62,595 nucleotides of DNA from Bryobacterales bacterium (GTDB lineage: Bacteria > Acidobacteriota > Terriglobia > Bryobacterales > Bryobacteraceae): assembly GCA_003167255.1 (NCBI GenBank), contig PMTR01000174.1:1-62595 (forward strand). Reading direction: 5' to 3'. Both the position numbers and the translations under genes were made by a program. Of this stretch, positions 24,867 to 62,252 are shown one piece after another. Below the pieces are notes generated by a model. The model had not been told where the DNA came from. It ran no database searches and saw nothing but the letters and a program-made list of their open reading frames with translations. Numbering within the stretch: the first letter of the stretch is position 1; every line of letters begins with the position of its first letter.

Positions 24867-24960
24867 AACCATTGCTATGTGAAATGATGATTGTTTAAGC
24901 ACAGCCACTACTCCAGCCGACCGAGCACCGGGTTTGACGACCGGCGGAGTCAAAGCCGAA

Positions 24961-45273: not shown

Positions 45274-48200
45274 TTACTCGGGGGGCTGCGGCGTCTCTTC
45301 CACGATGGTGGCACGGGCGCCGGTCTTGCGGGGCCTGCCTGCCCGGCCGCGCGCGGGTGGACGCCAATCGCGCAGGGTCTGGGAACTGATGCCAAGCTGC
45401 GTCATTTCCGACTCGACAAAGGTCCGGATGGATTCATTGAGCCGTTGTTGCCGGTCCGGGTCGATCTCGTTGTGCCACTGGTCCAGCCAGGGCTGGAGTT
45501 GTTCCAAACCGGCGAAGACCGGGACGAGGCGGTCGGCGGTCCAGCCGTCGTTGGCGCGCACGTCGTTGGCGTAGCCGGCCAGCGCCAGTGCCTGCTGGCC
45601 ATGGTCGTAGCCGGCCCAGGCGATGACCAGCGACTTGTCCGCGTCGCGCTCCAGGTGCGGGTAGGAGATCCAGCGCTCCTTGGGAACGTCGAGCTTGCCG
45701 CGGAGCCGCCAGTAGTCGGCGGAGAGGAAGTCGGTTCGTTCGTACTTGGGCGGGACGGGGATTTCTACGGTTTCGCCGGCGTCTTCGCGGCGCTGCAACG
45801 CCCAGGTCTGCTCCCAATCGGCCCGGGTACGCAAACCGCTTTCCTTGTAGCGGAGCACGGCGAGGAACGGGACGGACTCTCGGGCCACGAGTTCCTGGAC
45901 GAGGTCGGCAACGTCGAAATCGGGCCGACCACGGTAGAGCTCGGCCACCTGGAGAAATTCGGGGTCCAGACGGACGGCGTCGGCGAGGCGGGCGACGGAG
46001 GTAAGGGCCGGTGGGTGCACCGGCCAGTAGCGCGGATCTTCGAGGCGGTTGAGAAGCCAGTTACGAAGGGCCTCCTTTTCGAGTTCCTCCCAGGGAGGGA
46101 GGTTCCATCGCCGCTTGTACTCGGGCTGCTCAATGAGGGCGATATCGCGGTCCGCCGCGATGGTTTCCAAGCGGCGCTGCACCAGGGCGCGGTAAGGTGC
46201 CGGCCAGTGCTCCGGGATTTCGGTGCGGGGCGTGGAACGGTGGCGACCGAACCACTCGGTTTCGAGTTCGCCGGCTGCCATCGCTCGGGCCATGAGGATC
46301 TCGAAAGCACGCTCGCCGAGTTGGATGGGCGGGACCTGGTCGATGGGCAGAGTGAGGGGTTCGTCGATGAGGCCGTAGAGGTGGTAGACGTGCCAGTCGA
46401 GCTCTTCCTGGAGGGCGATCATCCGGAGCAGGAGGGCTTGGGCGCGGTCGTGGGCGGCGTCGAGCGCAGCGCGAGTCGGCGTTTCACGGGCGGCAAGGGC
46501 GGCGGGGAGGAGCGTGGTGCGTTCGTCGGCAGATACTTGGACTTCGGTGGCAACGTCGATTGGAGGGGCTGAAGGCAGCGGTATATCGAGTAGGTTAGTG
46601 CCGTTGAAAGAGAAATAGACGTCCCACAAACTTTTGCGTACCCGCGCGCCCTCCGTTCCGACTTGGTCACCGCTCCTCTGGAAGCATACCTGCCGGAGCC
46701 AAAACGATACAGCAGATGAGTTCAAGATGCTGAGCAGGTTAAGACAGGTCGAGAGAGATGGGGAGCGCAATAGAATGGCTGGAGCGTTTTGATTAAACAG
46801 CTTGCCACCACGTTCGAGCGCGAACGTAGGGTGTGTACCAATCTCACCTGATGCTATGGCGAGTGGAGCCAGGAATCGCTCAGGAAAGAACATCGAATGC
46901 TCGTACCATTGCAGTCCGCGCTCTGTGACTGTTTGCTCATAGTCGCGCCGGTTTCCCAGGTTCGTGCGGTAGGGCCAGAGCCTGCGAAGTAGCGGTCCTG
47001 GCAACGGTTTCACCTGTCCCGCGTGGTCGTATGGAAAGATCGCGGCGGTTTCAGGGTGGGTGCAGTATTCTTGGACTGCTTCCCCCCTCACGAGGGGCAC
47101 ACAATACTCTCTCAGGCCGAAAGTGTTCAGGCACGTGGCTGGAAGGATGAAGACTTCGTTTTCGCCCGTATGCGTTGTGCGGCCAGCAGCAAAGGCGTGG
47201 GTCGATACGCGGGAGATGGCCCCTCTGCCAATCCGCTCCTTCAGTTCGGCTGCGCCGCCCCCGCCGATGCTCCAGGGATGTGATCTGATCGCTTCGCGGT
47301 CCACATCAGCCACGGTTACGAATTGGCCTTCGAATCCAGCCACGTCGGAATGATTGCTTATCTCGATCCAGATCGGCGCCTTTGACGGGACATCAGGGAC
47401 GCCGATCTGTCCCCGAATGCCGCGGACCATACGGAGAACAGGCCCAAGGGGCCGTCTCCTCCGCAGAAAGAGGATAACCGTCGGGGTGCCATGCCCTGGG
47501 AGGTAGACGCCTGACGTATCAATAACTGTAGTGAGATCCCAGTTGGGAAGGAACTCTTCTACCAGCACTCGGCCGAATTGCTGTTTTGTGAAGGCGATCG
47601 ACGTGATCATGCCTACGTATCCCCCCGTTTCACTCAGATCGAGCGCACATTCGGTGAACGGGACAGAAACTTGGTAGGATCCGGAACAAGTCTTGTAGAG
47701 CTTGCGATAAAGGTTTCGGAGACCTGCGTCCTTCAGGTTGATGTACGGAGGGTTCGCGACAACCACCTGATATCCCTGTGCCTGCAGCACTACACGCAGT
47801 TTCTCAGGGTCTTCAGACGATTGCGCCACCAAGCTCGGGACCATCCTGTTGGGTCCGAAGATCAGTGAATCACCGGCCAGGATATGAATCGGCCAGTCCG
47901 GCGCGCTGGCCAGCGTAGGGATATGCGTGGCGCGCAGAGCCGCAATCAGCAGTCGGAAGCGCGCAATGGCAGCAGCGTAGGGATTCAAATCCACCCCGTA
48001 GATGCAGTCCAGCGTATTGCGGACGACCACCGTCAGATCGCCGTCCCGGTCCGCCCACAGTGGGAACAGACGGTCAAACGCTGCCAGCAAGAAGTGGCCG
48101 CTACCGCAGGCAGGGTCGATTAGGCGGAAGCCGTCGAGGGGGAATTCCTTCAGCGCTGGAGTGAGGGTCCGGTCCAGAATGAAATCGACGATGAAGTCCG

Positions 48201-48813
48201 GTGTTTGCAGAAGGGCGTAGCGTTTGCGGGCCGATTCCGAGATGTTCTGGTAGAGGTCGCCGAGAAAACGGGTACTACCGGCGGTGTCGCTGAAGTTGTG
48301 GCGCAGGTCTTGCGTGTCGGGGTTAGCGTCCTGGAAGAACCTCCAGATCACCTCGGCCCCGTCGCCATCCGGACCGAGGGTCCAGAGTGGGTTGTGGGCT
48401 CGGTCCAGCAACCCTTTCAAGCCCGGCAGGTGTTCCAGTTCGGAGAAGATGGCAAGCAGGTACTCGCGGTCGTTTCCCTCCGGGTGGGTGCGATACCAGA
48501 CGGTACGGCGATCCTGTGCGGCTTTGAGCCGCTCCCCGGGACCAGCGAGGTAGACGGCGCCGAGGAAGTCGTTGTCCTCCAGGAAGCGGATGAAGACGCA
48601 GGCGAGCAGCCAGGCCACGCCGGCCTGGGTGATTTCGCCTTCGCGCCACTCACTGAAGGTCATGCCCGTGCGGCCGGCGCGGCGCGCGGCGTCGTACCGT
48701 TCCTGGAGCGGCGTATTGACAGCAGGGGATTCGTCGCAGCGCTCCCGGATGTTGTTTTCGGTCGCGGTGAGGAGGCGGATCAGGTCGTTGCGGAGCAGCG
48801 TTTCGTCGATCAC
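45274..48813 (-). CDS. pglX: BREX type 2 adenine methyltransferase PglX
   Basis: DNA N6-adenine methyltransferase of 1179 residues. Motif I is DPACGSGHF (233-241) and motif IV is NPPY (354-357) in VVVANPPYI. The N-terminal part has NIRERCDESPAVNTPLQERY and the central region a target-recognition domain (from about 500). It starts with a GTG overlapping the TGA of pglW. In BREX it methylates host sites to mark self DNA, and is also needed for defence. The C-terminal extension beyond 950 is typical of the type 2 form. Confidence 0.92.
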   Translation of the reverse strand: MIDETLLRNDLIRLLTATENNIRERCDESPAVNTPLQERYDAARRAGRTGMTFSEWREGEITQAGVAWLLACVFIRFLEDNDFLGAVYLAGPGERLKAAQDRRTVWYRTHPEGNDREYLLAIFSELEHLPGLKGLLDRAHNPLWTLGPDGDGAEVIWRFFQDANPDTQDLRHNFSDTAGSTRFLGDLYQNISESARKRYALLQTPDFIVDFILDRTLTPALKEFPLDGFRLIDPACGSGHFLLAAFDRLFPLWADRDGDLTVVVRNTLDCIYGVDLNPYAAAIARFRLLIAALRATHIPTLASAPDWPIHILAGDSLIFGPNRMVPSLVAQSSEDPEKLRVVLQAQGYQVVVANPPYINLKDAGLRNLYRKLYKTCSGSYQVSVPFTECALDLSETGGYVGMITSIAFTKQQFGRVLVEEFLPNWDLTTVIDTSGVYLPGHGTPTVILFLRRRRPLGPVLRMVRGIRGQIGVPDVPSKAPIWIEISNHSDVAGFEGQFVTVADVDREAIRSHPWSIGGGGAAELKERIGRGAISRVSTHAFAAGRTTHTGENEVFILPATCLNTFGLREYCVPLVRGEAVQEYCTHPETAAIFPYDHAGQVKPLPGPLLRRLWPYRTNLGNRRDYEQTVTERGLQWYEHSMFFPERFLAPLAIASGEIGTHPTFALERGGKLFNQNAPAILLRSPSLSTCLNLLSILNSSAVSFWLRQVCFQRSGDQVGTEGARVRKSLWDVYFSFNGTNLLDIPLPSAPPIDVATEVQVSADERTTLLPAALAARETPTRAALDAAHDRAQALLLRMIALQEELDWHVYHLYGLIDEPLTLPIDQVPPIQLGERAFEILMARAMAAGELETEWFGRHRSTPRTEIPEHWPAPYRALVQRRLETIAADRDIALIEQPEYKRRWNLPPWEELEKEALRNWLLNRLEDPRYWPVHPPALTSVARLADAVRLDPEFLQVAELYRGRPDFDVADLVQELVARESVPFLAVLRYKESGLRTRADWEQTWALQRREDAGETVEIPVPPKYERTDFLSADYWRLRGKLDVPKERWISYPHLERDADKSLVIAWAGYDHGQQALALAGYANDVRANDGWTADRLVPVFAGLEQLQPWLDQWHNEIDPDRQQRLNESIRTFVESEMTQLGISSQTLRDWRPPARGRAGRPRKTGARATIVEETPQPPE

Positions 48814-51800
48814 TTAATGTCTCCGCGGTGCTGGTTCTTGATCCAGTAGCGATTGAGGCGCGCCCAGTGGTTGGGCGAGAGGAGCGGAACGGCGGCGGAG
48901 TCGATCATGGGTTTGTGGGTGTCCTGCCCGGCAACCAGAAGCCATACGCCGGGGCCGGGATTCTCGCGGATGCGATCGACGAAGGACGTCTGGCGGTACC
49001 GCGCGAGCAGACCGGGGTTGACCAGGAGGACGGGCCGGCCGGCAGCATGGATCTCAGTTTCCACGCCAGCCAGAGCATCGGCGGCGAGTCCCGCGAGGCG
49101 GGCGCGGTGCAGGCTTTCCTCGGGTTCGGCGTCGGCGGTGACGACGCGTTCCCAGGAGATGTTGCGGGTACGGGCCAGGGCGCGCATGGAGTCCAGCAGT
49201 TTGCGGTCCAAGTCGATGACGACGGGGTCCCAGCGCTTGACCAGCTCGCCGACGGCGTCGCCGTAATCGCGGATCGCTGTGGTGAGGACAAGGGGAGCGC
49301 GCTGGGCGAAGGCGACGGAGAGTTTGTGTTCGGTGTCGAGGGCGGTCTCGTAGTCGTCCCGTTCGGAAGGTGGCACGTCATACGTGCGACGGACCAGCAG
49401 GGTCGCGGAGCGGGGGACGTAGGAACTGGAAATATCGGTGGCCACGCGGGGCGCGCGGTAAAGGCCGGCGGCGGGATCCCAGGTCCAGTCGTAGCCGGCA
49501 TGAGCGAGGACGCCGTCGAGTTCAGGTCGGTCCGGCAAAGGAGCGGCCTCGGGGTAGCGGTCGCGTAGGCGGGCGCGAAGCTCGGGGATGGCGATGGCGT
49601 CGGCACCGGCCAAGGCGGACTGGGAGAGTTCCAGGGCGTCGCGCACCGCCATGTTTCGGGGGTAGAGTTCCAGCCGCGCGGACAGGGCGACCGCGGCCAG
49701 GGTGGCGGCCAAGCGCAGGAGGCGAGCGTCCTCCAGCGGCGCGAGGTGGGCCGGGAACGGGACGGCGCGCAGGGTTTCCAGGGCGCGCGCCGGGGCCGGC
49801 AAGGGGTGGGCGTTGGCCAGGACGCCGGCGACGTCCCCGAGGCGGCGGGCCCAATCCACCACAGCCAGTTCGTCCGCGGCAACAATCAGGATGCTGGAGA
49901 GGCAGCGGGCTTCGGTGAAGCGGGGCTTCTCCATGGCGCGTTCGGCTTCCAGGGCAGCCCGGCAGACGGCGGAGGCGTAGCGCAGGCGGAGGTGTCCTTC
50001 GCTGGTGGAGCCGCGCCCTGCGAGCAGAAGGCCAGCCAGTTCCACGGCTTCGAGGAGTCCGGAGCCGGAACTGAGCCGCTCATGAATAAACGTGCGGATT
50101 TCGGTGAGGGAGGGGTTGCGCCGCCAGCGCTGGCGTCCGGCGGCGACCACCTGGCCGATGCGGGCGCGGGTGACGTTCGAGCGGGCGGCAATCTCGGTCT
50201 GGCTGGGCCAAAGCGGAGCGCGGTCACTGGCGAGATCGTCAAGATCGAGGAGGGCGGCGAGGCGGCCACGGTCATCGCGCGTTTTGGCGCTGGCCGCCGG
50301 GAGGAGTTGCGCCGCGATTTCATCCACCGAGTGGACGAGCGGGGCGTCTTCATCGGGGGCGGTGGGCAGAGAGGGCGGGGCGGCGATGGCGGCTTCGGGG
50401 AAGCGGGCGCGGAGGTCCGCGATGAGTTCGATGATCTCCTTGCGCGTCTTGTCGCCCACGCCGCGGAGGCGTCGAAACCGGGTGGACGGGGTGGCGATGA
50501 GGTCCGCCACCGTATTGATGTTCTCGCGTTCGAGGACGTTCTGGGCGCGAGTGGAGAGGTGGAGGGAGACGACCGGCGTTTCGAGAGAGGCGGAGGCGAT
50601 GGCCTGGGTGCGCGCCGTGGGGTCGGGCAGGTGGGAGTCAGTGAAGCGCGCTTCGGAGAAGGCTGCGTGCCAGGCGCCGCGCATTTCGATGGCGGTATCG
50701 AACCGATCCTGGGGAGTGCGGCGGAAAGCGCGGGAAAAGAACGCGGTGAGGGCTTCGCGCACCTGGGAATCGAACCGGTTGGAGGCGATGGCCACCTCGT
50801 CCTGGATCAGGTGCGGCGCGCTCTGACCGTTGCCCCAGATGGGGAGGGCGCCGGTGGCCATCTCATAGAGAACGATGGCGGCGGAGAAGCGTTCGGCGTG
50901 CGGGTCCCAGCGGGGGCGCAGGATGAGGAAGGGCTCCATGTAGTCCGGCGTGCCGGCGCGGACGTTGTCGAGGGGGAGCCGCGAGAGGGAGAAATCGAAG
51001 AGCTTGAGGTGGAGCTGTTTGGCGTACTCGCGAACGCCGATGTTGTCGGGCTTGAGGTCGCGGTGGGGGACACCTTCGTGCTCCAGGAGTTCGAGGATAT
51101 CGAGCAGGTCGTCGCCGAAGCGCTGCAGGAACTCGCCAGAGAGGCGTCCGTCTTCCGTGAGGCGGGCGGCGAGGGTGCGATCTCCGGCGCGCTCCACCAG
51201 GAAGGCGTTGAGGCCGTTGAAGGTCAGCAGTTCGCTCTTGGGCGCCACGATGAATTTGTGGCGGAGCTTCTCCAGGACGTCGAGCTCGTCGCGGAGACGG
51301 TTGTTGTACTCGGGCTTGAGGGCGACCTTGAGGACGAGTTCCTCTTTCTCGCGCTCCACCAGGATCGCGGCGGCTGTGCCGCCGGTCCCGAGGCGGGCCT
51401 TGATCTTGAGGTTTCCGGGGAGGGTTTCGCCGATTGGTGCGCGGAGCGGATCGGGGCTGGGAGTGTCCGCGGGGGCGGTGAGTTCGTCTTCTACCTCATC
51501 GAGCTGACGGAGGAAGGCCGCAGCGGAATCGGTGCGGAGAAGCGTATCCGGGTGGGTTGCGTTGCGGATGAGGTCTTCGAGCTTGGCGCTGGCGCCGTCG
51601 ATGACGGAGGGCAGCGGCAGTCCCTGATGCGCGGCCAGGATTTCGTGGAGCTCGCGCATGTTGGGGGCGGGGGGCTGGCCTGAGAAGATGTGGAAGGCTA
51701 GGGCGCCGAGGGAGAAGATGTCGCAGATTTCGTCGCGGAGGTTCCGATTGCCGAGGGCTTCGGGCGCAACGTAGACGAGAGAGGCTTCCTCAATCCAATC

Positions 51801-52958
51801 CTCGAAGTGCAGGGTGAGCGAGGTGCGCTGTGTGGATTGGGACGCGGTGGACACTACGCGGCCGGCCTGCCAGTTGAAGATCTTGAGCTTGGGCTGGGGG
51901 GTGTCCGGTCCGGTGACGAGGATGGACTGCGGGCTGAGGGCGCGGTGGATGACGCGGCGGCCGTGAGCGTAACGAAGGGCGTCGGCGATCTGGCGGACGA
52001 AGTCGATGCGGAGGTGCAGGGGGATCTTGCGATCGGGCTGGCGAAGGTAGTGGTCGAGGCGGATTTCGTCGGCTTCGCGGCGGAACAGGATCGCGGGACC
52101 GAGTTCGTGCTCGGTGTAGTTCTGGGCCTCCAGGATGTGGTCGTGGCGGAGGGTGCGGAGGATGTCGTACTCGCTCTCCGCCATCTTGTGGACGATGCGG
52201 GGATCGACGGCCGGCTGGCGGGAGACCACATAGAGACGGACGCGGCGCGGGTCGTTCTTCAGGGAGACGTGCTCGGCGTGCCAGTCCTGGAAGGCGTTGT
52301 CTGGGCCTTCGGCGAGGAGTTCCTTGAGTTCGTAGTCGCCGACGCGGCGGTGCCGCTGGCTGCGGCGAATGCCCGCCTCGTCCATGGCGCGGGCCAGCCG
52401 GGCGAGGATGGGGCGATTGATGAGCGGGACGTCCTGCTTAAGGCCGGTGGCGTTGCGAAACTTGAGGGCGGCGATGATGCCGGGGGAGTTGTCACGGTCA
52501 CGCTGGCAGACGCGGATGCGGTCGGACTCGGGGAGGTGGTTGCGAAGTTCGGGATTGGAGAGAAAGATCAGGGCTTCGAGGTAGGGCAGCTTTTCGGCGC
52601 GAGTGGACGGCTGGTGCTCCAGGAGGGATTTCAGCTTCTTGCACTTCCGGTCGGCGTTGATGAGTGGGTTGTCGACAGTCTTGAGCCGGCCGTTGGGCTT
52701 GTGGTAGGTCCAGGTGCCGCGGTCGCCGCGCAGCTCGCCTTCGTCGCTCTTAATTTCCACGAGGAACAGTCCTCGCGGGGTGACGATGAGGGCGTCCACC
52801 TCGTTGACGGTACCGTCGTCGGCGATGAACGAGAAGTTGGTCCAGCCGAAGTAGGGGTCGCAATCGGGGAGTCCGGAGCGGAGGAATTCCAGCGCTTCGG
52901 CTTCCCATGGGAAGACGGATTCGGTGATGCGTTTCCAGCGTTGCTGCGAGAGTCCCAT
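48810..52958 (-). CDS. pglW: BREX type 2 kinase PglW with NERD domain and two kinase-like domains
   Basis: PglW-type Ser/Thr kinase, 1382 residues, first gene of the operon. Residues 15-120 form a NERD nuclease-like domain (EVDALIV with Asp55, LVEIKSDEG with Glu68 and Lys70). Residues about 205-490 are a first kinase-like domain whose catalytic motifs are lost: HRALSPQS (338-345) in place of HRD, and FNWQAG in place of DFG. Residues about 515-760 are a second kinase with LGTGGTAA, VLKVAL (Lys544), HRDLKPDN (632-639) and DFS (655-657). A helix-hairpin-helix-like segment (FRRLRGVGDKTRKEIIELIA) follows near 840, then a long C-terminal region. Phosphorylation by PglW is part of the type 2 mechanism. 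Confidence 0.9.
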   Translation of the reverse strand: MGLSQQRWKRITESVFPWEAEALEFLRSGLPDCDPYFGWTNFSFIADDGTVNEVDALIVTPRGLFLVEIKSDEGELRGDRGTWTYHKPNGRLKTVDNPLINADRKCKKLKSLLEHQPSTRAEKLPYLEALIFLSNPELRNHLPESDRIRVCQRDRDNSPGIIAALKFRNATGLKQDVPLINRPILARLARAMDEAGIRRSQRHRRVGDYELKELLAEGPDNAFQDWHAEHVSLKNDPRRVRLYVVSRQPAVDPRIVHKMAESEYDILRTLRHDHILEAQNYTEHELGPAILFRREADEIRLDHYLRQPDRKIPLHLRIDFVRQIADALRYAHGRRVIHRALSPQSILVTGPDTPQPKLKIFNWQAGRVVSTASQSTQRTSLTLHFEDWIEEASLVYVAPEALGNRNLRDEICDIFSLGALAFHIFSGQPPAPNMRELHEILAAHQGLPLPSVIDGASAKLEDLIRNATHPDTLLRTDSAAAFLRQLDEVEDELTAPADTPSPDPLRAPIGETLPGNLKIKARLGTGGTAAAILVEREKEELVLKVALKPEYNNRLRDELDVLEKLRHKFIVAPKSELLTFNGLNAFLVERAGDRTLAARLTEDGRLSGEFLQRFGDDLLDILELLEHEGVPHRDLKPDNIGVREYAKQLHLKLFDFSLSRLPLDNVRAGTPDYMEPFLILRPRWDPHAERFSAAIVLYEMATGALPIWGNGQSAPHLIQDEVAIASNRFDSQVREALTAFFSRAFRRTPQDRFDTAIEMRGAWHAAFSEARFTDSHLPDPTARTQAIASASLETPVVSLHLSTRAQNVLERENINTVADLIATPSTRFRRLRGVGDKTRKEIIELIADLRARFPEAAIAAPPSLPTAPDEDAPLVHSVDEIAAQLLPAASAKTRDDRGRLAALLDLDDLASDRAPLWPSQTEIAARSNVTRARIGQVVAAGRQRWRRNPSLTEIRTFIHERLSSGSGLLEAVELAGLLLAGRGSTSEGHLRLRYASAVCRAALEAERAMEKPRFTEARCLSSILIVAADELAVVDWARRLGDVAGVLANAHPLPAPARALETLRAVPFPAHLAPLEDARLLRLAATLAAVALSARLELYPRNMAVRDALELSQSALAGADAIAIPELRARLRDRYPEAAPLPDRPELDGVLAHAGYDWTWDPAAGLYRAPRVATDISSSYVPRSATLLVRRTYDVPPSERDDYETALDTEHKLSVAFAQRAPLVLTTAIRDYGDAVGELVKRWDPVVIDLDRKLLDSMRALARTRNISWERVVTADAEPEESLHRARLAGLAADALAGVETEIHAAGRPVLLVNPGLLARYRQTSFVDRIRENPGPGVWLLVAGQDTHKPMIDSAAVPLLSPNHWARLNRYWIKNQHRGDIK

Positions 52959-53173
52959 GGATGCGGCCCGATGTCGTAACTCGACAATTGTAACGCTTGG
53001 CCGCCACCGAGATGCCTCCGGGCCGGAGTCCGATCGCCATCTTCACGCCACACAGCGCCAACGGAATTAGAAGAGGCCCAAAACGCGAGTAAGCCGATGT
53101 GGCGGCACGCCAACGCTCCATCTGATACCATCCGCATTCTCACCAGGACTTAATCGCGAACACCGGAGGTCAA

Positions 53174-55972
53174 GTGAACTACACACCATCGCAACAGCGC
53201 GCCATCGCATCCATTGACCGAAACTTGCAGATCATCGCCTGCGCTGGATCCGGCAAGACCCAGGTAATCTCTCGCCGTATTGTAAATATCCTGGAAAAGA
53301 AGAAGAAATCGGGCATTAAGCCCGAGAACATCGTGGCCTTCACTTTTACGGAGAAGGCGGCTGGCGAGTTGAAGGACCGAATCCAGCGACTCTCGATCGA
53401 CCATCTGGGAACTGACGAGGGACTGGCCGGGATGTTTGTCGGCACAATCCACGCCTACTGTCTGAACCTGCTCCAACAACCGCCCGTCTATTCCTTCCTC
53501 AAGTACTCGGTGCTCACCGAGGTGCAGCAGCGCTTGTTGATCGACCGGAATAGCAAGAAGAGCGGTCTGACCGAGGTGCCGCTCCTGGATGGCCGAACGT
53601 TGACGCGGTACGCGGACTCGCGGCTGTACCAATCGCTGCTGGGGGTGTTGGAAGAAGGCGGCGTGAAAATGCGGAGTGTGCCCGACGGCGTCAAGCAGGC
53701 AGCGGCGAAGTACCGCGCCCTGCTGGAGGAGAAGAAGTACTTGGACTACTCCGGCATGCTGAGCCGGGCGGTGCACGAACTCAAGGGAAACCCCAAGCTA
53801 CGCGAAGGACTCAAAGCCTCGATTCGATACCTCGTCGTTGACGAATACCAGGACGTGAATCCGCTGCAAGAGGCTCTGATCCGGGAGATTGCCTCTCTCG
53901 GCGCCAACATCTGCGTTGTCGGAGACGACGACCAGACTATCTATCAATGGCGCGGGAGTGATGTCCAGAACATCATTCGCTTCACGGATCGTTATAGCAA
54001 CGTGAAGACGGAGCGACTGAACGAGAATTTCAGAAGTAGCAAGGGAGTCGTGCTTACGGCGCGCAGAATCATCGAGCAAAATCCAGACCGCCTCGAGAAG
54101 AAGATGGAGAGCACCGAAGCCCAGCCGTTCGAGCGAGGCGATATCCTGGCCGTCCATTTTACGGATGAGGCGGAAGAGGCCCGGTGGATCGCCAAGAAGA
54201 TTGAATGGCTGAAGGGCGCTTATTACCGGGATCGCGCCGAGAAGCCACCCAGGGGTCTGACGTACTCAGATACAGCAATTCTGGTTCGGGCGTGGAAGGA
54301 TGCTGGTCCAATTGTCGACGCACTCCGCGATGCAGAAATACCGTATCTCGGTGGCGGAATGAACTCGCTGCTAGACACTCCGGAGGCACAGGCGATTCGC
54401 GAAGCGTTCTACTACATGGCGGACCACGTCGCACGCGGCCGCGCGCCGTCGTCCGAATCCACCGTAGCCCAGTCCTTGGTGTCCGCCTTTCCGGGCCTGA
54501 ACGAGGATGAAATCCAAGCGGGCATCCGGTTTCTGCAAGGGATTCGGAAGCGAATCCCGCTGGGTAGCGACAACCAACTCTTCCTACAACGGGTCTTTCT
54601 TGACTTCCTGGAGGCACTTTCAATCGCGGAAGAAAAAATCGGCAGCAAGGGCCGAACAGGAGAGGTTATCTTTTTCAATCTGGGCAAGTTCAGCCAGCTT
54701 ATCTCTGACTTCGAGCACATCCACTTTCACAGCAGCCCCGGGCAGCTTTACTCCAGTTTCGCCAGCTTCCTCGAATTTCAGGCTGCTGATTACTACCCGG
54801 AAGAGACGCAGGAAACGATACGTCCCCGCCCCGACGCGGTGAGTGTAATGACCGTTCACCAAGCCAAAGGCATGCAGTGGCCGGCGGTTTTCGTGCCCTG
54901 CCTGCGTGCGAACCGATTTCCTTCCCGCCGCCAAGGCGGCCGAACGATTTGGCATGTCATCCCCGAAACTGCTGTGCCAGATGCCGACCGATACAAGGGG
55001 ACCAAGGAGGACGAGCGCCGGCTTTTCTATGTCGCGTTGACGAGGGCAGAAAAGTACTTGTTTTGCTCATGGGCGCCCGTACCTGGGAACCGACAGCAGC
55101 AGCGGGTTTCCGAATTCTTCACCGACGTAACTCAGAGTGAGCACGTGCTCAGCAAGGAGCCCGGCCGGCAACCGAAGCGGCTGGAGCCGAAGCCGCGAGT
55201 CCCCGATGCGCCTCTCCCCCTGACGTTCAGCGAACTCCGATACTTCTTCCAGTGTCCATACGATTTCAAGTTGCGCTTCATGTATGGATTCGATTCGCCG
55301 GTCAGCCGCGCAATGGGCTTCGGCAAGTCGCTTCACGATGCGCTCTGCGAAATCCATGCCGAGTCCATCCGCGGCGCAGTTCCCACGGTCGCCGGGGTGC
55401 CGGACTTGGTTGAGCGTCATCTGCACCTTCCATTTGCCAACGACGAGGTCCGGGAGAATGCTGGAAAGGAGGCCGCAAAGGCCCTCCGGCGATACCTTGA
55501 GAACCACCGAGAGCATTTGGAACGATTGGAGCACGCGGAGAAGACGATCGAATTGAAACTAGCTGATGGCATCGTGGTGAGTGGCCGCATTGATCTGATC
55601 CGAAGAACCGATACGAACGAGATCGCGATTGTGGACTTCAAGTCCAGTGAAGACGCGCAGCCAACAGAGATGACCCGCCTTCAGCTGCAGGTCTATGCGG
55701 CGGGATATCAGAAGGCGGTGGGCAAGCCAGCCGATCTCATAGAGATACACAACCTGGATCTCGGCCACATTCACCGCGAGGAAGTGCAAGATACGATCAT
55801 TAAGCAGACGCTCGACCGGGTTGTCGAGGCAGGCAAGAATATTCGCGACGTAAATCTCGCCAAGCATGAGACGTGGTGTACGACCTGCAGCTCGTGCGAC
55901 ATGGCAGGAATTTGCCGCCCTAGACCGGCCAACCCGCGCAAAACGCGGAACCGCACAAACTCGTCAAACTGA
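53174..55972 (+). CDS. UvrD/Rep-type helicase with C-terminal PD-(D/E)XK nuclease and Cys cluster
   Basis: Superfamily 1 helicase-nuclease of 932 residues. Helicase motifs: CAGSGKT (23-29), AFTFTEKAAGELKDRI, motif II DEYQD (223-227), GDDDQTIYQWRG, VMTVHQAKGMQWPAVFVPCL and RRLFYVALTRAEKYLF. The C-terminal third is an AddB/Cas4-like nuclease: GRIDLIRR with Asp807, IVDFKS with Asp821 and Lys823. Cys694 together with Cys902, 905, 908 and 914 (CSSCDMAGIC) is the pattern of a 4Fe-4S cluster. The GTG start follows GGAGG by 4 bp. It is divergent from the BREX operon across 215 bp and heads three plus-strand genes. Likely a DNA end-processing enzyme in defence. Confidence 0.88.
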   Translation: MNYTPSQQRAIASIDRNLQIIACAGSGKTQVISRRIVNILEKKKKSGIKPENIVAFTFTEKAAGELKDRIQRLSIDHLGTDEGLAGMFVGTIHAYCLNLLQQPPVYSFLKYSVLTEVQQRLLIDRNSKKSGLTEVPLLDGRTLTRYADSRLYQSLLGVLEEGGVKMRSVPDGVKQAAAKYRALLEEKKYLDYSGMLSRAVHELKGNPKLREGLKASIRYLVVDEYQDVNPLQEALIREIASLGANICVVGDDDQTIYQWRGSDVQNIIRFTDRYSNVKTERLNENFRSSKGVVLTARRIIEQNPDRLEKKMESTEAQPFERGDILAVHFTDEAEEARWIAKKIEWLKGAYYRDRAEKPPRGLTYSDTAILVRAWKDAGPIVDALRDAEIPYLGGGMNSLLDTPEAQAIREAFYYMADHVARGRAPSSESTVAQSLVSAFPGLNEDEIQAGIRFLQGIRKRIPLGSDNQLFLQRVFLDFLEALSIAEEKIGSKGRTGEVIFFNLGKFSQLISDFEHIHFHSSPGQLYSSFASFLEFQAADYYPEETQETIRPRPDAVSVMTVHQAKGMQWPAVFVPCLRANRFPSRRQGGRTIWHVIPETAVPDADRYKGTKEDERRLFYVALTRAEKYLFCSWAPVPGNRQQQRVSEFFTDVTQSEHVLSKEPGRQPKRLEPKPRVPDAPLPLTFSELRYFFQCPYDFKLRFMYGFDSPVSRAMGFGKSLHDALCEIHAESIRGAVPTVAGVPDLVERHLHLPFANDEVRENAGKEAAKALRRYLENHREHLERLEHAEKTIELKLADGIVVSGRIDLIRRTDTNEIAIVDFKSSEDAQPTEMTRLQLQVYAAGYQKAVGKPADLIEIHNLDLGHIHREEVQDTIIKQTLDRVVEAGKNIRDVNLAKHETWCTTCSSCDMAGICRPRPANPRKTRNRTNSSN

Positions 55973-56119
55973 GGCAACTGACACGCTTTCGCCAGAGCGC
56001 GACTCCGTGAATTGATCTGGGCAACGGTTGGCGATGGCGAACTCATCCACGGGTGGAGTCTGACCGGCATCTTCGCCTCTACCACTATCGGCGTGGAAAG
56101 GGAGTAAATTGAGTGTTCC

Positions 56120-57088
56120 ATGAGTCACGACATTGATCAGACGACCGGCAGACCTGCAATCGCCTACGTCGGCGAGAAACCCTGGCACGGGTTAGGCGAA
56201 GCACTGCCTGAAGGCCAACCAATTGAACTATGGCTCGAAAAGGCAAGGCTCGCATGGGAACTGAAGAGGTTGCCCGTGCAGTACCTGGCCGATGGAATTC
56301 ACCGAACGATGGCGGATAAGTTCGTGCTGTCCCGGAGTGACACCCATGAGGCGCTGTCCATTGTGTCGGGCGATTACCAGATCGTGCAGCCAAAGGAGGT
56401 CCTGGAGTTCTACCGGGACCTGATGGACGATTACGGCTACAAGCTGGAAACAGCCGGCGCGCTTGATCACGGCCGGAAGGTGTGGGCGTTGGCGAAGACC
56501 GGCGTCACCGCGGCCGCTGACGATCACGGCGAGGATAAGATCGCGGCCTACGTCTTACTCGCAACCTCCTGCGACAAAACACTCGCCACCTCCGTGGCGT
56601 TTACGAGCATTCGCGTGGTCTGCCAGAACACCCTATTCTTCGCTACGGAGGAAGTCAGGCAGAGGAGGCTGCCCCAGGTAAAGGTCCCGCATAATTTGTT
56701 CTTCGACGCTTCGGCTGCGAAGAAAGACCTGGGCCTGATGGATCCGGCATGGAAGGCGTTCTTGTCGAAAGTCCGCAAGATGGCGGTCTACCGGATGGGT
56801 ACGGAGCAGTCATCACGGTTCTTTGAAGCGCTACTTGCAGCCAAGGACAAGCCGCTATCGAAGCCGGCGCAACGAGAGCACCAAACGATGACGGCCCTAT
56901 TCCAGTCCGCGCCGGGCCAGAACTTCACTACAGCGAAGGGAACACTCTGGGGGGCCGTCAATACCGTGACCTACTACGTGGACCACGTGCGCTCCGGCGC
57001 CGAAGAGCGGCTGGACGCCGCCTGGTTCGGCAACGGCTGCACCCTGAAAGAAAAGGCATGGGCCCATGCGTCCACGATGGTCGGGTAG
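56120..57088 (+). CDS. DUF932 (phage/plasmid-like) protein
   Basis: DUF932 protein of 322 residues, of the phage/plasmid-like group. Recognisable segments are AIAYVGEKPWHGLGEALPEG near the start, SIVSGDYQIVQPKEVLEFYR, TSVAFTSIRVVCQNTLFFAT and NTVTYYVDHVRSGAEERLDA near the end. Function is unknown; members occur on phages, plasmids and genomic islands. It lies 147 bp after the helicase-nuclease gene and 84 bp before the ATPase-nuclease gene, all on the same strand, so co-transcription is likely. Confidence 0.85.
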   Translation: MSHDIDQTTGRPAIAYVGEKPWHGLGEALPEGQPIELWLEKARLAWELKRLPVQYLADGIHRTMADKFVLSRSDTHEALSIVSGDYQIVQPKEVLEFYRDLMDDYGYKLETAGALDHGRKVWALAKTGVTAAADDHGEDKIAAYVLLATSCDKTLATSVAFTSIRVVCQNTLFFATEEVRQRRLPQVKVPHNLFFDASAAKKDLGLMDPAWKAFLSKVRKMAVYRMGTEQSSRFFEALLAAKDKPLSKPAQREHQTMTALFQSAPGQNFTTAKGTLWGAVNTVTYYVDHVRSGAEERLDAAWFGNGCTLKEKAWAHASTMVG

Positions 57089-57172
57089 TGCGGCAGGGTC
57101 GCGGCGCTCGGCGAGTTATTGGGGCGGACCGCATCCCGAAAGAACCTCTAAGGTAGATCAAGGCGCATACAC

Positions 57173-60100
57173 ATGACCACCGTCACCCAGACCGCAATGA
57201 CCGACAGCGCCGCAGCGCAATTCGTGGTAGACGTCCGAAAGAAGAACCAGGACTTTTACGCCACCGACCGCGGATATGGCGCGCTGAAGGACCTTCAACA
57301 GACCTTCCCACACGCGTGGCTGTACGTTGGCGAGTTGCTGCAGAACGCAGTGGACGCTGAGGCCAAGCACATCCGCCTCTCGGTGGATGAAGCAGCGCGC
57401 ACGCTGGTTGTCGAGCATGATGGTAAGGCCTTTGATGACGGGCACGTCGAGGCGTTGTGCGTCCGCGGAATGTCCAAGAAGGGGGCCGGCACGGTCGGCT
57501 TCATGGGAATCGGCTTTAAGGCCGTGTTCCAGAGCTTTGAATGTGTCGATGTCAGTTCAGGGCCGTGGCGTTTTGGCTTTCGCGTCAAAGAGGAGGTCGG
57601 GGAACTGGGGGACCGGCAGCGCCACTGGCTTGGGTGCGTCCTGCCCGCTTATGAAGAGACGATCGCGCCGCCATCCCAGGGGATGACGTGCCGGTTCTTC
57701 CTCCACGACAGATTACAGCGGCTTGGCCCCATAGCGGATGACGTTACCAAGGTGCTCTCGCCAGATCTTCTGGTTCTTGCGTTGCTGGCGCGCCGGGGTG
57801 TCTTGGAAGTCGAGTGGTTAGGGGAGCACTGGCTGCTGGAGCAACAGGAGGAGACGGTCGACGAGCAGATGACCCGCGTCAAGCTCACCGCGTACCACGA
57901 GGCGAGTGAGCGCACGCGAGAGTGGATCCTGTTTTCCTCACGCTACCAGCCAAGCGGCCCCGCCATTGCGCGCTTTTTGGAACACCGGCAGATACAGCCG
58001 CGCCCCGAGGAGAAGGAAGCGGTATATGCCGAGGCGCAACGACAGCGGACAGTCGAGGTCTTCTGCCCACTGGACGATCGTGGCTTCCCGCAACCTCCTC
58101 AGCGCGGTCAAGCATACGCCCTGCTCCCTACTGGGGTGAACGTGCCGCTGGGATTGCACGTACAGGCGGACTGGCTGCTGGTCACCAGCCGCCGCGAGAT
58201 CATGGAGGTCGAGACCAACCAGTGGCATCGCGAGATCCTATCGCGGTTCGCCGGGCTTGTGGCGGCGTACCTCTCGTGGGTCACGACATTGCAAGACATC
58301 CCCGACCAGGCGCTTGGTGAGAGCATTGCGATATTGCCGGAGTGGGACGAGACGGACGGTGCGTTCAGCGCGTATCTAAGTGACCCTGAGTTCTGTGACG
58401 GCCTCAAGGCCGCACTGTCGTCCTTGTCCTTCTTGCCGGTCCGCGCGGAGGAGGGCACGCGGTTTGCGATGCCATCAGAAGCGCGACTGCTGCCTTCGAT
58501 CCTGCGGTCCTTTGACGAGGCAACTCTCTTGCCTTGGGTGCTTTTCGGGGACTGCGTTCTCAGCACGACGATCCTCGGCAACCGCACGCTGGACTCGCTA
58601 TCGCATCTTGGGCTTCTCACGCCCCTGACCGTTGCTGACCTGTCGAGCCACTGGGAGAGTGGCACTGTCGGAGAATGGCGAGAGCAACTCGGGGCAGGCG
58701 GGGCCGATGCTCACCTACGTCTCTTGCGGGCGCTGGCAAGCCTGGATGGCGTCACCGCTTGGCGTGAGTCTCGCTTGCGGTGCCTCCCCGCAGCCGATGG
58801 CGCATGGATCGACCGTGACAGCGCGATCGGACTGCCTGCCGAGTGGGATTCCGTTCCAGAAGAGGACCCGCCATTGCGATCGTTGCTGGAACCCCACCTG
58901 GCGCCACCGCATGAACGGCTGGAGTGGGGATTTGATCGATCCTTGCGACGTGACGCGGCTGCGCAGGAGTACGTCAGGCAGATGCGCCGCGAAAACCTGG
59001 AGGAGGTAATGCGGCGCTGGTGGGAGGGACTGCCCACCCAGCCGGATTCGGACGGGCAAACCCTCGTCCTCGACGTGTCCTGCTGGGTGCACCTGAAGCA
59101 GAAGCAGCGGCCCAATCTGGTGATGCGGGCACTGTGCGAGGACGGCACCGTCGCTCCACTGGAGAATGTCGTTCTGGCCGACCCGTACGCGAGCCCGTCG
59201 CGGAGACGCTTCTTCTCCGGTGTGCCTGTCATATCACCTCGATACTTGCAGCACAAGCCGGGGCTGACGGATGCCGACTGGCGATCGTTCTTTGAAAGCG
59301 CAAGCGACAAGATCAAAGGCCCTCTTCGCCTTTGGCGTTCGTCGGCAACGCTCTCCCGTGCCGGCATTCAAGAGCGACTCCCTGGCTACAGCGCTCCAGA
59401 TACAAAGTCGTGGGCAATTACGGCCAAGTATTCTATCTGGAGCTTCTACTCCAAGAACTACCTTCTCATCGACGCCAATTTTGACAAGCAGGTTCTTGCG
59501 ATCCTGAACGGGCCCACGCCGGAGGACGCGCGTGAGTTCGGGGCGTGGCTCCATGAGGCGCGCCAAGTGCTGCCTGGCAACCACCAACTCGAGATGGCCT
59601 ACGTGCCGTGGGGCTCCAGCAGCGTTTATGCCCCCAAGCTGCCTTACAGCGCAAGCTGGGTGGGCGTGCTGCAAACCGCAGTCTGGGTGCTCGCGGTCGA
59701 TGGCAGTGGGCCTTATCGGCCAGAGAGTGTGTTGCCAAACGCCGATCCGGCACGCCCGGATGCGCCCGTGGCGAACCTCTCGGCGGACCTGGTACGAATC
59801 CTGGAACAATGTGGGATCAACTTCGGCGCGAACATCGCTCAAGTCGCGTCGATTGATCGGTTGCGCCGGGAAGGGCCGGGAGCGGCACCGGAGCGCCTGG
59901 TGCAGCTTCTGGAGGCGGCTGTTGCAGACGCCGAGCAGAATCCTGAGTACCGGGCTGAACTCGCAACGGTCCTGGCGCTGCCATTGCTTCCGGTTGGTGA
60001 GGCGCTGATCGACGGATCCACGCGCATCGGCGCTGGGCGCTTGGTGGCCAAGAGCACGCGTGGCGCCGACCTCGGCGGCTGGCTGCTATCTGTGAACAGC

Positions 60101-61738
60101 GCGTCAGAGGACGGCCCGAACGCGCAGTTGTATGCCCTGGTGGCTCCGATTATTGAGATCCCACATGCACCCAAATGGGACCAGGCGCTGGAGTTTCTGG
60201 TGTGGGTTTGGCGGAAACGGCCGGACGCCGAGTTGGTGAGGCGCATCCTGCCACGTGCATACCGCCTCATCGCTGAGGGCCTCGATCACGATCGAGAGGA
60301 GGCATGGCGCTTCGCGCGTGAAGACGCGTTCGTGTACGTGGCCTCAAGGAAATGGGCGAGCGTGAAGTCGGACTTGCTCTTTCTCGATGACTTGGGAGAT
60401 GAACGCTTCAAAGGGCTGGTGAGCGCGCTGCTGCTGGCAACCCCCGGACACCTTGGTGAGACGCGCGACGAACAGTACCGCATTGCCGACCTCCTGGGCA
60501 TACAGCGTCTCTCGAGCCGCTTCGCCATAACGCTTTCGTTCGAAGGCGCGCAGGACGTGCCAGTAACGTGGCCGGAACGCCTCACACTGGTCATGGATTT
60601 CCTGTGCGCAGTTGCGCAGGAAGACGACGCCGACGACGGTCCGACTACTCGCCCCAGCATCGGCTACTTCTTGCAGATCAGCAAAGAACTCATTGACGAT
60701 GGCGTGACGAAGAGCGCGTGGCGTGTGTACGCTGCCCGTGATGAAGACTGTGTGTGCGTCGCGGGAGCGCCAGATGAGTTCAACGCGGACCTCTGTCGTG
60801 TGCTGCTGCAGTGGAGTGGCCTTGCCAACCGCCGCGACCTCGATGAGTTGGCACCCACGCTGACGCAGTTGCTCGGATGGCTTGACCGTGAGGAAAAGTT
60901 CGGCCCGCGACTGGAGGAACTTCGCAGTCAGCACGGGTTGTTCCAAGGGCCGGAAGAGCCCTCCGAGAGTGCAGCCGTGGAAGCGACCAAACCGGCCAGT
61001 GCAGAGCCAAAGGTACTGCCGCCGCCGGCTGAAAGCGGAAAGCCCGCCCCGCCCTCCTCCCCGACCCTGCCTCCGGCTGAGGACGCAGCCACCGAAGACG
61101 GGCGCGAAGAGCATGCGCCGCCCCAAAGCGGAACTCCTGAAGTGCCCTCGCCATCCGGCGGGCACACGGCGGATGATCGTGAGAGTCGACTACAGAGCCT
61201 GCGGAAGAAACGCTCGGAGATCGAGACGCAGATGAAGGAACTGCTGGGCGTCGGCCCCATCCCCGACGACACCGGCGATGGCACTGGGGATGGGGAGAAG
61301 CACTCGCACCAGGCTTTCGGGTCCGATGTGGCATACCGGCAGGCCGTGGTGGACTTCGAGCGTGATGCCGGGCGATTCGCCGAAGCCAAAGATGCTGGAC
61401 AACCAGGTTACGATATTGACAGCTTCGACAAGGCACTCGATTACCCCACAAAGCGCCTGGTGAGGCGCATCGAGGTCAAGGGACACGGCTGCGACTGGAC
61501 AGATGATGAGACGGTAGAGCTGAGCGACAGGCAGTTGCTCGACGCGATCGCGCGAAAGGCCGATCAGGTGCCGCTGTCGGAGGACTTCGACTACTGGCTG
61601 TACATTGTCGAGCGCCACGATGATGGAACACTCCAGGTGCTCCCAATTCAGAATCCTGCACGCCGAGCGGCAAGATTCGAGTTCCGGGCCGGCACGTGGC
61701 GGGCGCTGGTCGAGCAGCCGGACATCGGGGCTGAATGA
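57173..61738 (+). CDS. HSP90/sacsin-type ATPase fused to a DUF3883 nuclease-like domain
   Basis: Giant protein of 1521 residues. Residues about 45-180 form a GHKL-type ATPase: ELLQNAVDAEA (54-64) gives the N box, EHDGKAF (81-87) the G1 motif and GFMGIGFK (109-116) the G2 loop, as in sacsin and HSP90. The long middle has no clear family. A Pro/Glu/Ala-rich linker spans about 1265-1340, with a short coiled coil. Residues about 1410-1500 fit DUF3883 (the NO VEIN C-terminal domain): GYDIDSFD with Asp1414, and IEVKG with Glu1434 and Lys1436, a PD-(D/E)XK-like pattern, then FDYWLYIVER. I infer an ATP-gated nuclease or DNA sensor. The start is ATG 57173, with ATG 57197 as an alternative. Confidence 0.85.
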   Translation: MTTVTQTAMTDSAAAQFVVDVRKKNQDFYATDRGYGALKDLQQTFPHAWLYVGELLQNAVDAEAKHIRLSVDEAARTLVVEHDGKAFDDGHVEALCVRGMSKKGAGTVGFMGIGFKAVFQSFECVDVSSGPWRFGFRVKEEVGELGDRQRHWLGCVLPAYEETIAPPSQGMTCRFFLHDRLQRLGPIADDVTKVLSPDLLVLALLARRGVLEVEWLGEHWLLEQQEETVDEQMTRVKLTAYHEASERTREWILFSSRYQPSGPAIARFLEHRQIQPRPEEKEAVYAEAQRQRTVEVFCPLDDRGFPQPPQRGQAYALLPTGVNVPLGLHVQADWLLVTSRREIMEVETNQWHREILSRFAGLVAAYLSWVTTLQDIPDQALGESIAILPEWDETDGAFSAYLSDPEFCDGLKAALSSLSFLPVRAEEGTRFAMPSEARLLPSILRSFDEATLLPWVLFGDCVLSTTILGNRTLDSLSHLGLLTPLTVADLSSHWESGTVGEWREQLGAGGADAHLRLLRALASLDGVTAWRESRLRCLPAADGAWIDRDSAIGLPAEWDSVPEEDPPLRSLLEPHLAPPHERLEWGFDRSLRRDAAAQEYVRQMRRENLEEVMRRWWEGLPTQPDSDGQTLVLDVSCWVHLKQKQRPNLVMRALCEDGTVAPLENVVLADPYASPSRRRFFSGVPVISPRYLQHKPGLTDADWRSFFESASDKIKGPLRLWRSSATLSRAGIQERLPGYSAPDTKSWAITAKYSIWSFYSKNYLLIDANFDKQVLAILNGPTPEDAREFGAWLHEARQVLPGNHQLEMAYVPWGSSSVYAPKLPYSASWVGVLQTAVWVLAVDGSGPYRPESVLPNADPARPDAPVANLSADLVRILEQCGINFGANIAQVASIDRLRREGPGAAPERLVQLLEAAVADAEQNPEYRAELATVLALPLLPVGEALIDGSTRIGAGRLVAKSTRGADLGGWLLSVNSASEDGPNAQLYALVAPIIEIPHAPKWDQALEFLVWVWRKRPDAELVRRILPRAYRLIAEGLDHDREEAWRFAREDAFVYVASRKWASVKSDLLFLDDLGDERFKGLVSALLLATPGHLGETRDEQYRIADLLGIQRLSSRFAITLSFEGAQDVPVTWPERLTLVMDFLCAVAQEDDADDGPTTRPSIGYFLQISKELIDDGVTKSAWRVYAARDEDCVCVAGAPDEFNADLCRVLLQWSGLANRRDLDELAPTLTQLLGWLDREEKFGPRLEELRSQHGLFQGPEEPSESAAVEATKPASAEPKVLPPPAESGKPAPPSSPTLPPAEDAATEDGREEHAPPQSGTPEVPSPSGGHTADDRESRLQSLRKKRSEIETQMKELLGVGPIPDDTGDGTGDGEKHSHQAFGSDVAYRQAVVDFERDAGRFAEAKDAGQPGYDIDSFDKALDYPTKRLVRRIEVKGHGCDWTDDETVELSDRQLLDAIARKADQVPLSEDFDYWLYIVERHDDGTLQVLPIQNPARRAARFEFRAGTWRALVEQPDIGAE

Positions 61739-61982: not shown

Positions 61983-62252
61983 TCAGCGGTCTTGTACCTG
62001 GATGACAAACGAGCGCTCATCGGTGCGGCCGCCGGAGGTGGTAATGCGGTTGGTGACCGTGTACGCCTGGCATGCAACACCACCAGAGAGCCAGACGGTC
62101 GTGCGGGTTGGGGTATTCGAGTCAACTCCCGCTTCGAGTGCGGGATCGCTGACGGACCAGGCGCTGGTAGCGATTTGATCACCAGCCAGCCACTTCGACC
62201 AATCGACGGAGTAGTCCAGGACGGCATCGGGATCTTTGATGAAAGTCGTCAT
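61983..62252 (-). CDS. Phage tail-type small protein (fiber-tail adaptor-like)
   Basis: A protein of 89 residues beginning [20 protein letters not shown], with [20 protein letters not shown] and GRTDERSF near the end. This composition and layout match small structural proteins of phage tail operons annotated as fiber-tail adaptors, placed between tail and fiber genes. The ATG at 62252 is preferred because family members begin there; the frame stays open further upstream to the window edge. It lies next to the istB scar, so it is part of a prophage remnant or a phage-derived gene block. Confidence 0.6.

Follow-up and report, generated by a model that had tools for sequence, protein, structure and literature searches.

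A helicase-nuclease, a DUF932 protein and a TmtA-family protein beside a BREX type 2 operon: possible auxiliary parts of a defence island

Do three genes that stand back to back with a phage defence operon form a system of their own, do they serve that operon, or do they simply share its neighborhood? The question is raised by a 62,595 bp stretch of DNA from a Bryobacterales bacterium (assembly GCA_003167255.1, contig PMTR01000174.1, positions 1 to 62,595), here called the window. In it a helicase-nuclease gene (gene 1), a DUF932 gene (gene 2) and a gene for a long GHKL-type protein with a nuclease-like end (gene 3) follow one another on the plus strand, divergent from a complete BREX (bacteriophage exclusion) type 2 operon. 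This arrangement had been described in an earlier note made from the DNA letters alone, and the open reading frames together with PADLOC, Pfam and NCBIfam matches bear it out. The best explanation, which we hold with even confidence, is that the three genes serve a BREX and restriction-modification (R-M) defence island as auxiliary or back-up parts, interchangeable modules and not a conserved stand-alone system; that they act in defence at all, we infer. Relatives of all three are found in or beside BREX-related (BR), BREX-2 or R-M operons, and, to judge from alignments, the predicted catalytic residues of genes 1 and 3 are kept. The three consecutive reading frames and their domains are:

53174..55972, plus strand: gene 1, UvrD-family (superfamily 1A, SF1A) helicase fused to a RecB/AddB/Cas4-type nuclease, 932 aa, GTG start
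55220..55918, plus strand: nuclease domain of gene 1, residues 683-915, from Pfam and a 6-sequence alignment
56120..57088, plus strand: gene 2, DUF932 / TIGR03299 protein, 322 aa
57173..61738, plus strand: gene 3, predicted sacsin/GHKL-type ATPase with a C-terminal PD-(D/E)XK domain, TmtA family, 1521 aa
57326..57547, plus strand: GHKL/sacsin ATP-binding region of gene 3, residues 52-125
61322..61717, plus strand: PD-(D/E)XK domain of gene 3, residues ~1384-1515, from alignment, predicted fold and profile

Gene 1 had been read as a UvrD helicase joined to an AddB/Cas4-like nuclease, and it is one. A single chain carries the Pfam domains UvrD-helicase (1.7e-55), UvrD_C (4.7e-33) and PDDEXK_1 (4.3e-21), the solved structures closest to its motor are PcrA/UvrD, and the nuclease residues D807, D821-x-K823 and Q837xxxY841 are invariant in an alignment of six sequences. 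Also invariant in the six are cysteines C694, C905, C908 and C914, a possible iron-sulphur (Fe-S) site; a cysteine cluster of this sort resembles the Fe-S nucleases of the AddB/Cas4 kind. With the window's own genome counted, relatives are present in 4 of 151 genomes of the class (at 1e-70) and 6 of 347 of the phylum (at 1e-80). Plasmids gave 12 records at 1e-40, two of which cover at least 80%, and viral contigs gave two relatives, one of which runs off the end of its contig. Neighboring genes were read for 12 relatives (L010, L011, L021, L022, L032, L033, L034, L039, L118, L119, L120 and L121), and seven lie in R-M neighborhoods. At L010, L011, L033 and L121 the company is Dcm plus either Vsr or a type II endonuclease, the Dcm gene being adjacent or at most two genes away. 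At L021, L119 and L120 the relative adjoins an N6/N4 methyltransferase, with a ResIII subunit besides, and the methyltransferase and Res proteins of these loci are 64-83% identical to one another (the L120 methyltransferase is without its middle). The sequence ends at or near the gene 1 relative on one side at L022 and L118, and at L039 the relative is truncated to ~236 residues. BLAST found no TmtA-family, BREX or BR protein at the 12 loci.

Two of these arrangements recur. One is an R-M-like operon of UvrD-RecB, N6/N4 methyltransferase and ResIII genes (L021:4506-12800, L119:1952-10867, L120:1389-8698), whose ResIII subunit ends in an S24-peptidase-like region in L119 and L120. The other, present in two genomes (L033:7422-11726, L121:8774-13219), is a cassette of Dcm, UvrD/RecB helicase-nuclease and Vsr genes in that order, and in the second of these genomes a PglZ-domain protein (L121:4045-6570) is encoded ~2.2 kb upstream of the Dcm gene.

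Gene 3 is matched by eight PADLOC TmtA models (8e-38 to 7.1e-6), the matches being partial and covering stretches such as residues 1207-1515 or 53-455. TmtA we take to be "Tiamat". Tiamat is a single-gene anti-phage system. The earlier note knew of no named system with this set; gene 3 by itself, however, falls in a PADLOC family. Its description as a GHKL protein with a DUF3883 end survives in part. The NCBIfam sacsin N-terminal ATP-binding domain scores 62.6 bits against a cut-off of 50, and the sacsin-type ATP-binding motifs are retained (E54, N58, D61, G84 and GFMGIGFK). These motifs make ATP binding likely; hydrolysis is less certain, because the residue preceding G84 varies, with Asp in three of the five aligned sequences and Asn in the other two. 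At the other end, Pfam calls no DUF3883-like domain in the window protein itself. PF13020 (NOV_C), presumably DUF3883-like, is above cut-off in four of five relatives scanned, and a profile of five relatives, window excluded, matches residues 1325-1515 at 1.4e-30, with 0 matches in 200 shuffles. The predicted fold of this end is PD-(D/E)XK. Foldseek places Hjc best (5.5e-4), and VIA gives the SPARDA nuclease a Z of 10.2 (114 aa, 3.9 Å) and Hjc a Z of 9.2 (103 aa, 2.9 Å), on a model of modest confidence (mean pLDDT, the predicted local distance difference test, 57; blocks of the nuclease domain 46-88). D1414 and E1434-V-K1436 are invariant in the alignment, and modelled fold and E-x-K motif together are those of PD-(D/E)XK nucleases.

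Neither gene 3 nor its C-terminal profile found a relative among PDB sequences, and searches of plasmids and viral contigs for TmtA relatives were also empty at the settings used. Gene 3 is present in two of 101 class genomes (its own and G011), and the TmtA model PDLC03965 matches 8 of 151. The C-terminal profile also matches, in a 13-protein set, the C-termini of two BR helicases (L152 and L153, 2.2e-10 and 1.4e-5). In the available part of PMC3710099, SNF2 helicases linked to DUF499 are described as fused to DUF3883, 'a novel REase domain'.

The neighbors of other TmtA-family genes, meaning genes with a TmtA model match or BLAST similarity to gene 3, were examined at 21 loci besides the window. 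Dropped before counting were L012 (same contig as L005) and L113 (an McrBC locus); of 22 rows from one TmtA model search, 17 were dropped as shorter frames with a C-terminal match only (positions 1315 and beyond), the window and four of the examined loci being kept. A helicase-nuclease adjoins the TmtA-family gene at three of the 21. In G102 (L035) an AddB-like protein of 881 aa and an AddA-like protein of 1117 aa are encoded on the pglW strand, 148 bp before pglW, with the TmtA gene divergent. In G082 (L106) a NERD-SF1 helicase gene lies 2 bp from the TmtA-family gene. In G335 (L145:5210-13431) a Dna2-like gene overlaps its TmtA-family neighbor by 4 bp; the helicase part of its product matches DNA2 structures at 3.2e-14, and its nuclease-like start was judged by eye. 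Looser associations are seen too. One protein fuses a sacsin-type domain to a superfamily 2 (SF2) helicase (L108:9080-13588), and in G129 (L112:5321-15200) a TmtA-family gene, matched in its N-terminal part only, is 6 bp downstream of a HEPN-DUF499 gene, with a DUF1156-type methyltransferase, which reads in two pieces, beyond. At L111 the TmtA-family gene comes after an SNF2 helicase and an N6/N4 methyltransferase, at L109 after a helicase-like protein; L005 is near an Eco57I-like methyltransferase and L014 near ResIII and a methyltransferase. (Neighbor labels DUF262, Hsd, integrase, OLD, ERF, YqaJ, Pol A and HSP90-like were recognised by eye.) TmtA with a helicase reads as a recurring theme with exchangeable parts and not as an orthologous operon, because the neighboring helicases belong to different families.

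That gene 2 encodes a DUF932 protein, as first proposed, is clear from Pfam (5.2e-54, 183.9 bits against a cut-off of 23) and TIGR03299 of NCBIfam (276.4 bits against 110.7). Its model is good (pLDDT 84, predicted template-modelling score (pTM) 0.82); no solved fold relative was found by Foldseek (best TM 0.13) or VIA (best Z 3.8), which is no proof of a new fold. The gene is present in 6 of 347 phylum genomes, and the nearest relatives, at 61-62% identity, are in G322 and G274. There it follows a helicase gene in operons (L152 and L153) of the order helicase, DUF932, DUF1156 methyltransferase, HEPN/DUF499 ATPase, with gaps flanking DUF932 of 26 and 11 bp (G322) or 41 and 21 bp (G274); the G274 operon has additional genes of 596 aa before and 345 aa after the methyltransferase. 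Between the two operons protein identity is 55-71%, and it is 55-73% when they are compared with a Meiothermus operon annotated as 'helicase-related, DUF1156, Swt1 HEPN', itself without DUF932. In the terms of PMC12839542, as far as its available text goes, a helicase/DUF1156/DUF499 make-up is Type-1 BREX-Related. Window gene 2 and the G322 and G274 genes are one clade (support 100/99) in a 13-row tree built with six of the 32 viral loci and without plasmid sequences. Other DUF932 genes of the phylum are more distant: one is at L039, near the gene 1 fragment, one lies ~3 kb from an Hsd-like cluster (L154), and one is near an integrase-like gene (L155), the last two labels being given by eye. 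One open-access library yielded no literature linking DUF932 with BREX, and for pairs among DUF932, DUF499 and DUF1156 only PMC12839542, the available part of which does not contain DUF932.

How does this compare with other BREX-2 loci? BREX-2 PglW is encoded in 3 of 151 class genomes (the window's own, G102 and G131) and 6 of 247 phylum genomes. TmtA and a helicase-nuclease are present at two of the three class loci, the window and G102, and G102 repeats the composition of BREX-2, helicase-nuclease and TmtA with parts that are not orthologous. Eleven loci other than the window were read (G102, G131, G332, G369, G208, G309 and five plasmids; the G332 flank is only 6.7 kb on one side, and the plasmid gene tables are incomplete). 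The idea that the genes are an add-on to BREX fares unevenly: the DUF932 relatives in BR operons, the TmtA-family gene 6 bp from DUF499 and the G102 locus speak for it; that no TmtA/helicase-nuclease pair was found in 10 of the 11 loci, all but G102, speaks against it. As a separate observation, an HSP90-like (GHKL) protein of 770 aa, recognised by eye, is encoded a few kb upstream of the BREX-2 pglW of G369 (L056:11690-14002).

The BREX type 2 operon of the window is complete, with PglW, PglX, BrxC/PglY, PglZ, BrxD and BrxHI all matching PADLOC models, and PglW matched by NCBIfam as well:

52959..53173, no strand: divergent intergenic region between pglW and gene 1, 215 bp
48810..52958, minus strand: pglW (BREX type 2 kinase, NERD), by PADLOC, Pfam and NCBIfam
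45274..48813, minus strand: pglX methyltransferase, by PADLOC
41617..45270, minus strand: brxC/pglY ATPase, by PADLOC
39113..41620, minus strand: pglZ, by PADLOC
37815..39116, minus strand: brxD, by PADLOC
35800..37818, minus strand: brxHI helicase, by PADLOC

A scan of the pglW/gene 1 intergenic region found no match to a sigma-70-like promoter. The promoter and terminator scan gave 0 promoter-like and 6 terminator-like sites (shuffles give 2.2 and 7.9), Rfam and tRNA scans gave no matches, and the repeat search returned short, chance-like pairs. Across the BREX operon from the three genes are two Schlafen AlbA_2 proteins (20293-21288, minus strand, and 24934-26376, plus strand), the second with HATPase_c_4; Schlafen-type effectors adjoining BREX are reported in the available part of PMC12839542.

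A serious contender, though probably wrong, is juxtaposition in a defence island: a Tiamat-like single gene, a helicase-nuclease associated with restriction and a DUF932 gene from a mobile element would have arrived separately, none depending in its action on the others or on BREX. Much of what was found sides with it and weighs against an auxiliary role. No second trio, and no gene 1 and gene 3 orthologues side by side, were found in the surveys. Gene 3 matches models of a single-gene family, and at 18 of the 21 other TmtA loci, some on short contigs, no helicase-nuclease neighbor was found; at 12 no helicase, methyltransferase or similar neighbor was found (breaks or short contigs affect L016-L020 and L110). 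In several of the 21 (e.g. L107, L109-L112, L146 and L147) the match is confined to the N-terminal region. Among the BREX-2 loci where the pair was not found, G369 and a Polaromonas plasmid show, past brxHI, a UvrD-like or ATP-dependent helicase without a TmtA-family gene, and the link of BREX-2 with TmtA and a helicase-nuclease is no stronger than suggestive, as defence-island clustering alone could give it. The gaps of 147 bp (genes 1 and 2) and 84 bp (genes 2 and 3) are loose, and gene 1 relatives also occur without R-M genes (none around L032, or around L034, which has an in-frame stop). The G+C content at third codon positions is 0.705-0.752 in the trio, against 0.809-0.847 in five of the six BREX genes (pglX, 0.738), and minus-strand phage structural and lysis genes (Gp77 tail adaptor, head protein, endolysin) begin 244 bp after gene 3, running from window position 61983 to contig position 68550 (L004; the contig extends 5,955 bp beyond the window end). 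Because of this difference from most BREX genes and the adjoining phage genes, separate arrival of the trio is possible.

Gene 2 adds to this side of the balance. The DUF932 relatives found come mostly from phages and plasmids: at 1e-20 there are 42 phage and 35 plasmid records, none of which reaches 60% identity to the window protein. In plasmids, 40 DUF932 records and the 60 listed of 61 DUF1156-type methyltransferase records share one accession, in which the listed places are ~545 kb apart, no second place for DUF932 being seen in it. DUF932 is an occasional insert in BR loci and not a core part of them, since the association with DUF1156 is not seen in plasmids. Against independent arrival stand G102, with its non-orthologous version of the same composition, and the fact that relatives of each of the three genes belong to, or adjoin, operons of the BREX-related, BREX-2 or R-M kind. 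Such recurrence of the parts alongside BREX, BREX-related and R-M systems is strong enough for an auxiliary degradation cassette to be favored over pure cargo.

A new stand-alone three-gene anti-phage system, the proposal of the earlier note, is unlikely. In its favor, the genes are consecutive and on one strand, and encode two predicted nucleases, each with its own ATPase. The note held that the proposal would fall if the three genes did not co-occur elsewhere or matched a named system, and this is largely what was found when they were sought as conserved neighbors. Searches covered 101 class genomes for gene 3, 151 for genes 1, 2 and pglW, and 347 phylum genomes for genes 1 and 2. Among the 151, gene 1 is in its own genome and G005, G147 and G082, and gene 2 in its own, G054 and G088. 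Of the trio genes and pglW, no second class genome has any two at the cut-offs used, the window's genome standing alone, and among the 347 phylum genomes it is the only one that genes 1 and 2 share. A pattern-based scan of GTDB contigs, which recovers only part of the relatives, used a TmtA profile of two sequences and found nine loci; BLAST matched gene 1 or 2 at none of them. The nearest to a partial trio is L039 in G054, where the truncated gene 1 relative lies ~1.3 kb from the DUF932 gene on the same strand; that DUF932, however, is of a distant branch (28%). In G082, relatives of gene 1 and, with wider TmtA models, of gene 3 are on different contigs, with a stop in the gene 1 frame. The neighbors of relatives of the trio genes also differ from place to place. 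The three genes are no conserved three-gene system in these surveys, because, the G054 fragment apart, neither the trio nor two of the three were found co-located in other surveyed genomes.

Least probable of all is that helicase-nuclease and DUF932 serve phage or plasmid recombination, leaving gene 3 the sole defence gene: the phage head, endolysin and tail-adaptor genes downstream, and the viral DUF932 genes in replication modules with ERF-like, YqaJ-like and Pol A-like neighbors, would fit, but 7 of 12 gene 1 relatives keep to R-M loci, and it is BR operons, not phages, that hold the closest DUF932 genes. By BLAST no relatives of genes 1 or 3 are in the 32 viral contigs with DUF932, and another scan of viral contigs gave two DUF932 loci and no more.

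If the genes are auxiliary parts of the island, they could act in succession. BREX (PglX/PglZ) would mark self, and nick or stall unmodified phage DNA. Gene 3, a putative GHKL clamp with a long sensor region, would respond, and its PD-(D/E)XK end would cut DNA. Gene 1 would load on ends or nicks, unwind, and degrade DNA processively in the manner of RecBCD. The DUF932 protein, common to BR operons and phage recombination modules, may be an adaptor that bridges or regulates, perhaps by binding DNA. Taken further, and tentatively (we think it rather improbable), BREX-type islands would contain a swappable degradation unit: a TmtA-type GHKL-PD-(D/E)XK sensor-cutter, any end-processing helicase-nuclease (UvrD-RecB, AddAB, Dna2 or NERD-SF1) and a DUF932 adaptor for BREX-2 islands and DUF499 BR operons. 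Were that true, the window would give these surveys their first example of the full three-part unit, and some Tiamat-type genes, if not all, would belong to two-gene systems as one of the two members. Some TmtA-type proteins may in any event work with a helicase-nuclease partner, contrary to the single-gene view. DUF932, a phage and plasmid family listed without function in the scanned libraries, gains a place in BREX-related defence operons. The DNA-destroying step of BREX is still debated, and the DUF932 and TmtA placements bear on how BREX finishes off phage DNA.

Among known systems the closest for gene 3 is TmtA/Tiamat, with the same GHKL start and nuclease end and the eight model matches; the difference is that here the gene follows helicase-nuclease and DUF932 genes beside BREX, and the model matches are partial. 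The BR helicases of L152 and L153 share with gene 3 a C-terminus found by its nuclease profile. A BR type 1 locus in the window itself was sought, and tblastn of the L152, L153 and L112 proteins gave no match at 1e-3; window BrxHI has weak helicase similarity to the BR helicases (27-31% over ~100 aa).

AddAB, RecBCD and Dna2-type enzymes have a RecB-type nuclease with a Cys cluster. Gene 1 resembles them in coupling a helicase with such a nuclease and cluster, and differs in being a single chain with a PcrA/UvrD-like motor; as an AddAB/RecBCD member it is rejected by the AddA, RecB and AddB equivalogs (147.8 against 707.65, 135 against 696.05 and 18.2 against 486.5 bits). Its best PADLOC rows, for the helicase part only, are the defence-associated reverse transcriptase (DRT) helicase RTasHel (8.1e-65) and the Gabija helicase GajB (1.8e-59), whereas in gene 1 the helicase is fused to a nuclease and the adjoining genes are pglW and DUF932, not GajA. 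Gabija was rejected on that ground, no GajA (OLD ATPase-TOPRIM) being among the matches listed for 13 window proteins.

In the available part of PMC2292703, MORC and paraMORC R-M systems show the same theme of a GHKL ATPase, a helicase and a restriction endonuclease-fold nuclease in R-M loci, there with SF2 helicases and other GHKL families, here with an SF1 helicase-nuclease and a sacsin-type GHKL region fused to a nuclease. The likeness to the BREX and BR auxiliary nuclease effectors surveyed in PMC12839542 lies in placement: in its available text, diverse auxiliary nucleases, extra PD-(D/E)XK nucleases among them, adjoin core BREX and BR loci. UvrD, sacsin, GHKL, HSP90, Tiamat and DUF932 are absent from that main text, as far as it is available.

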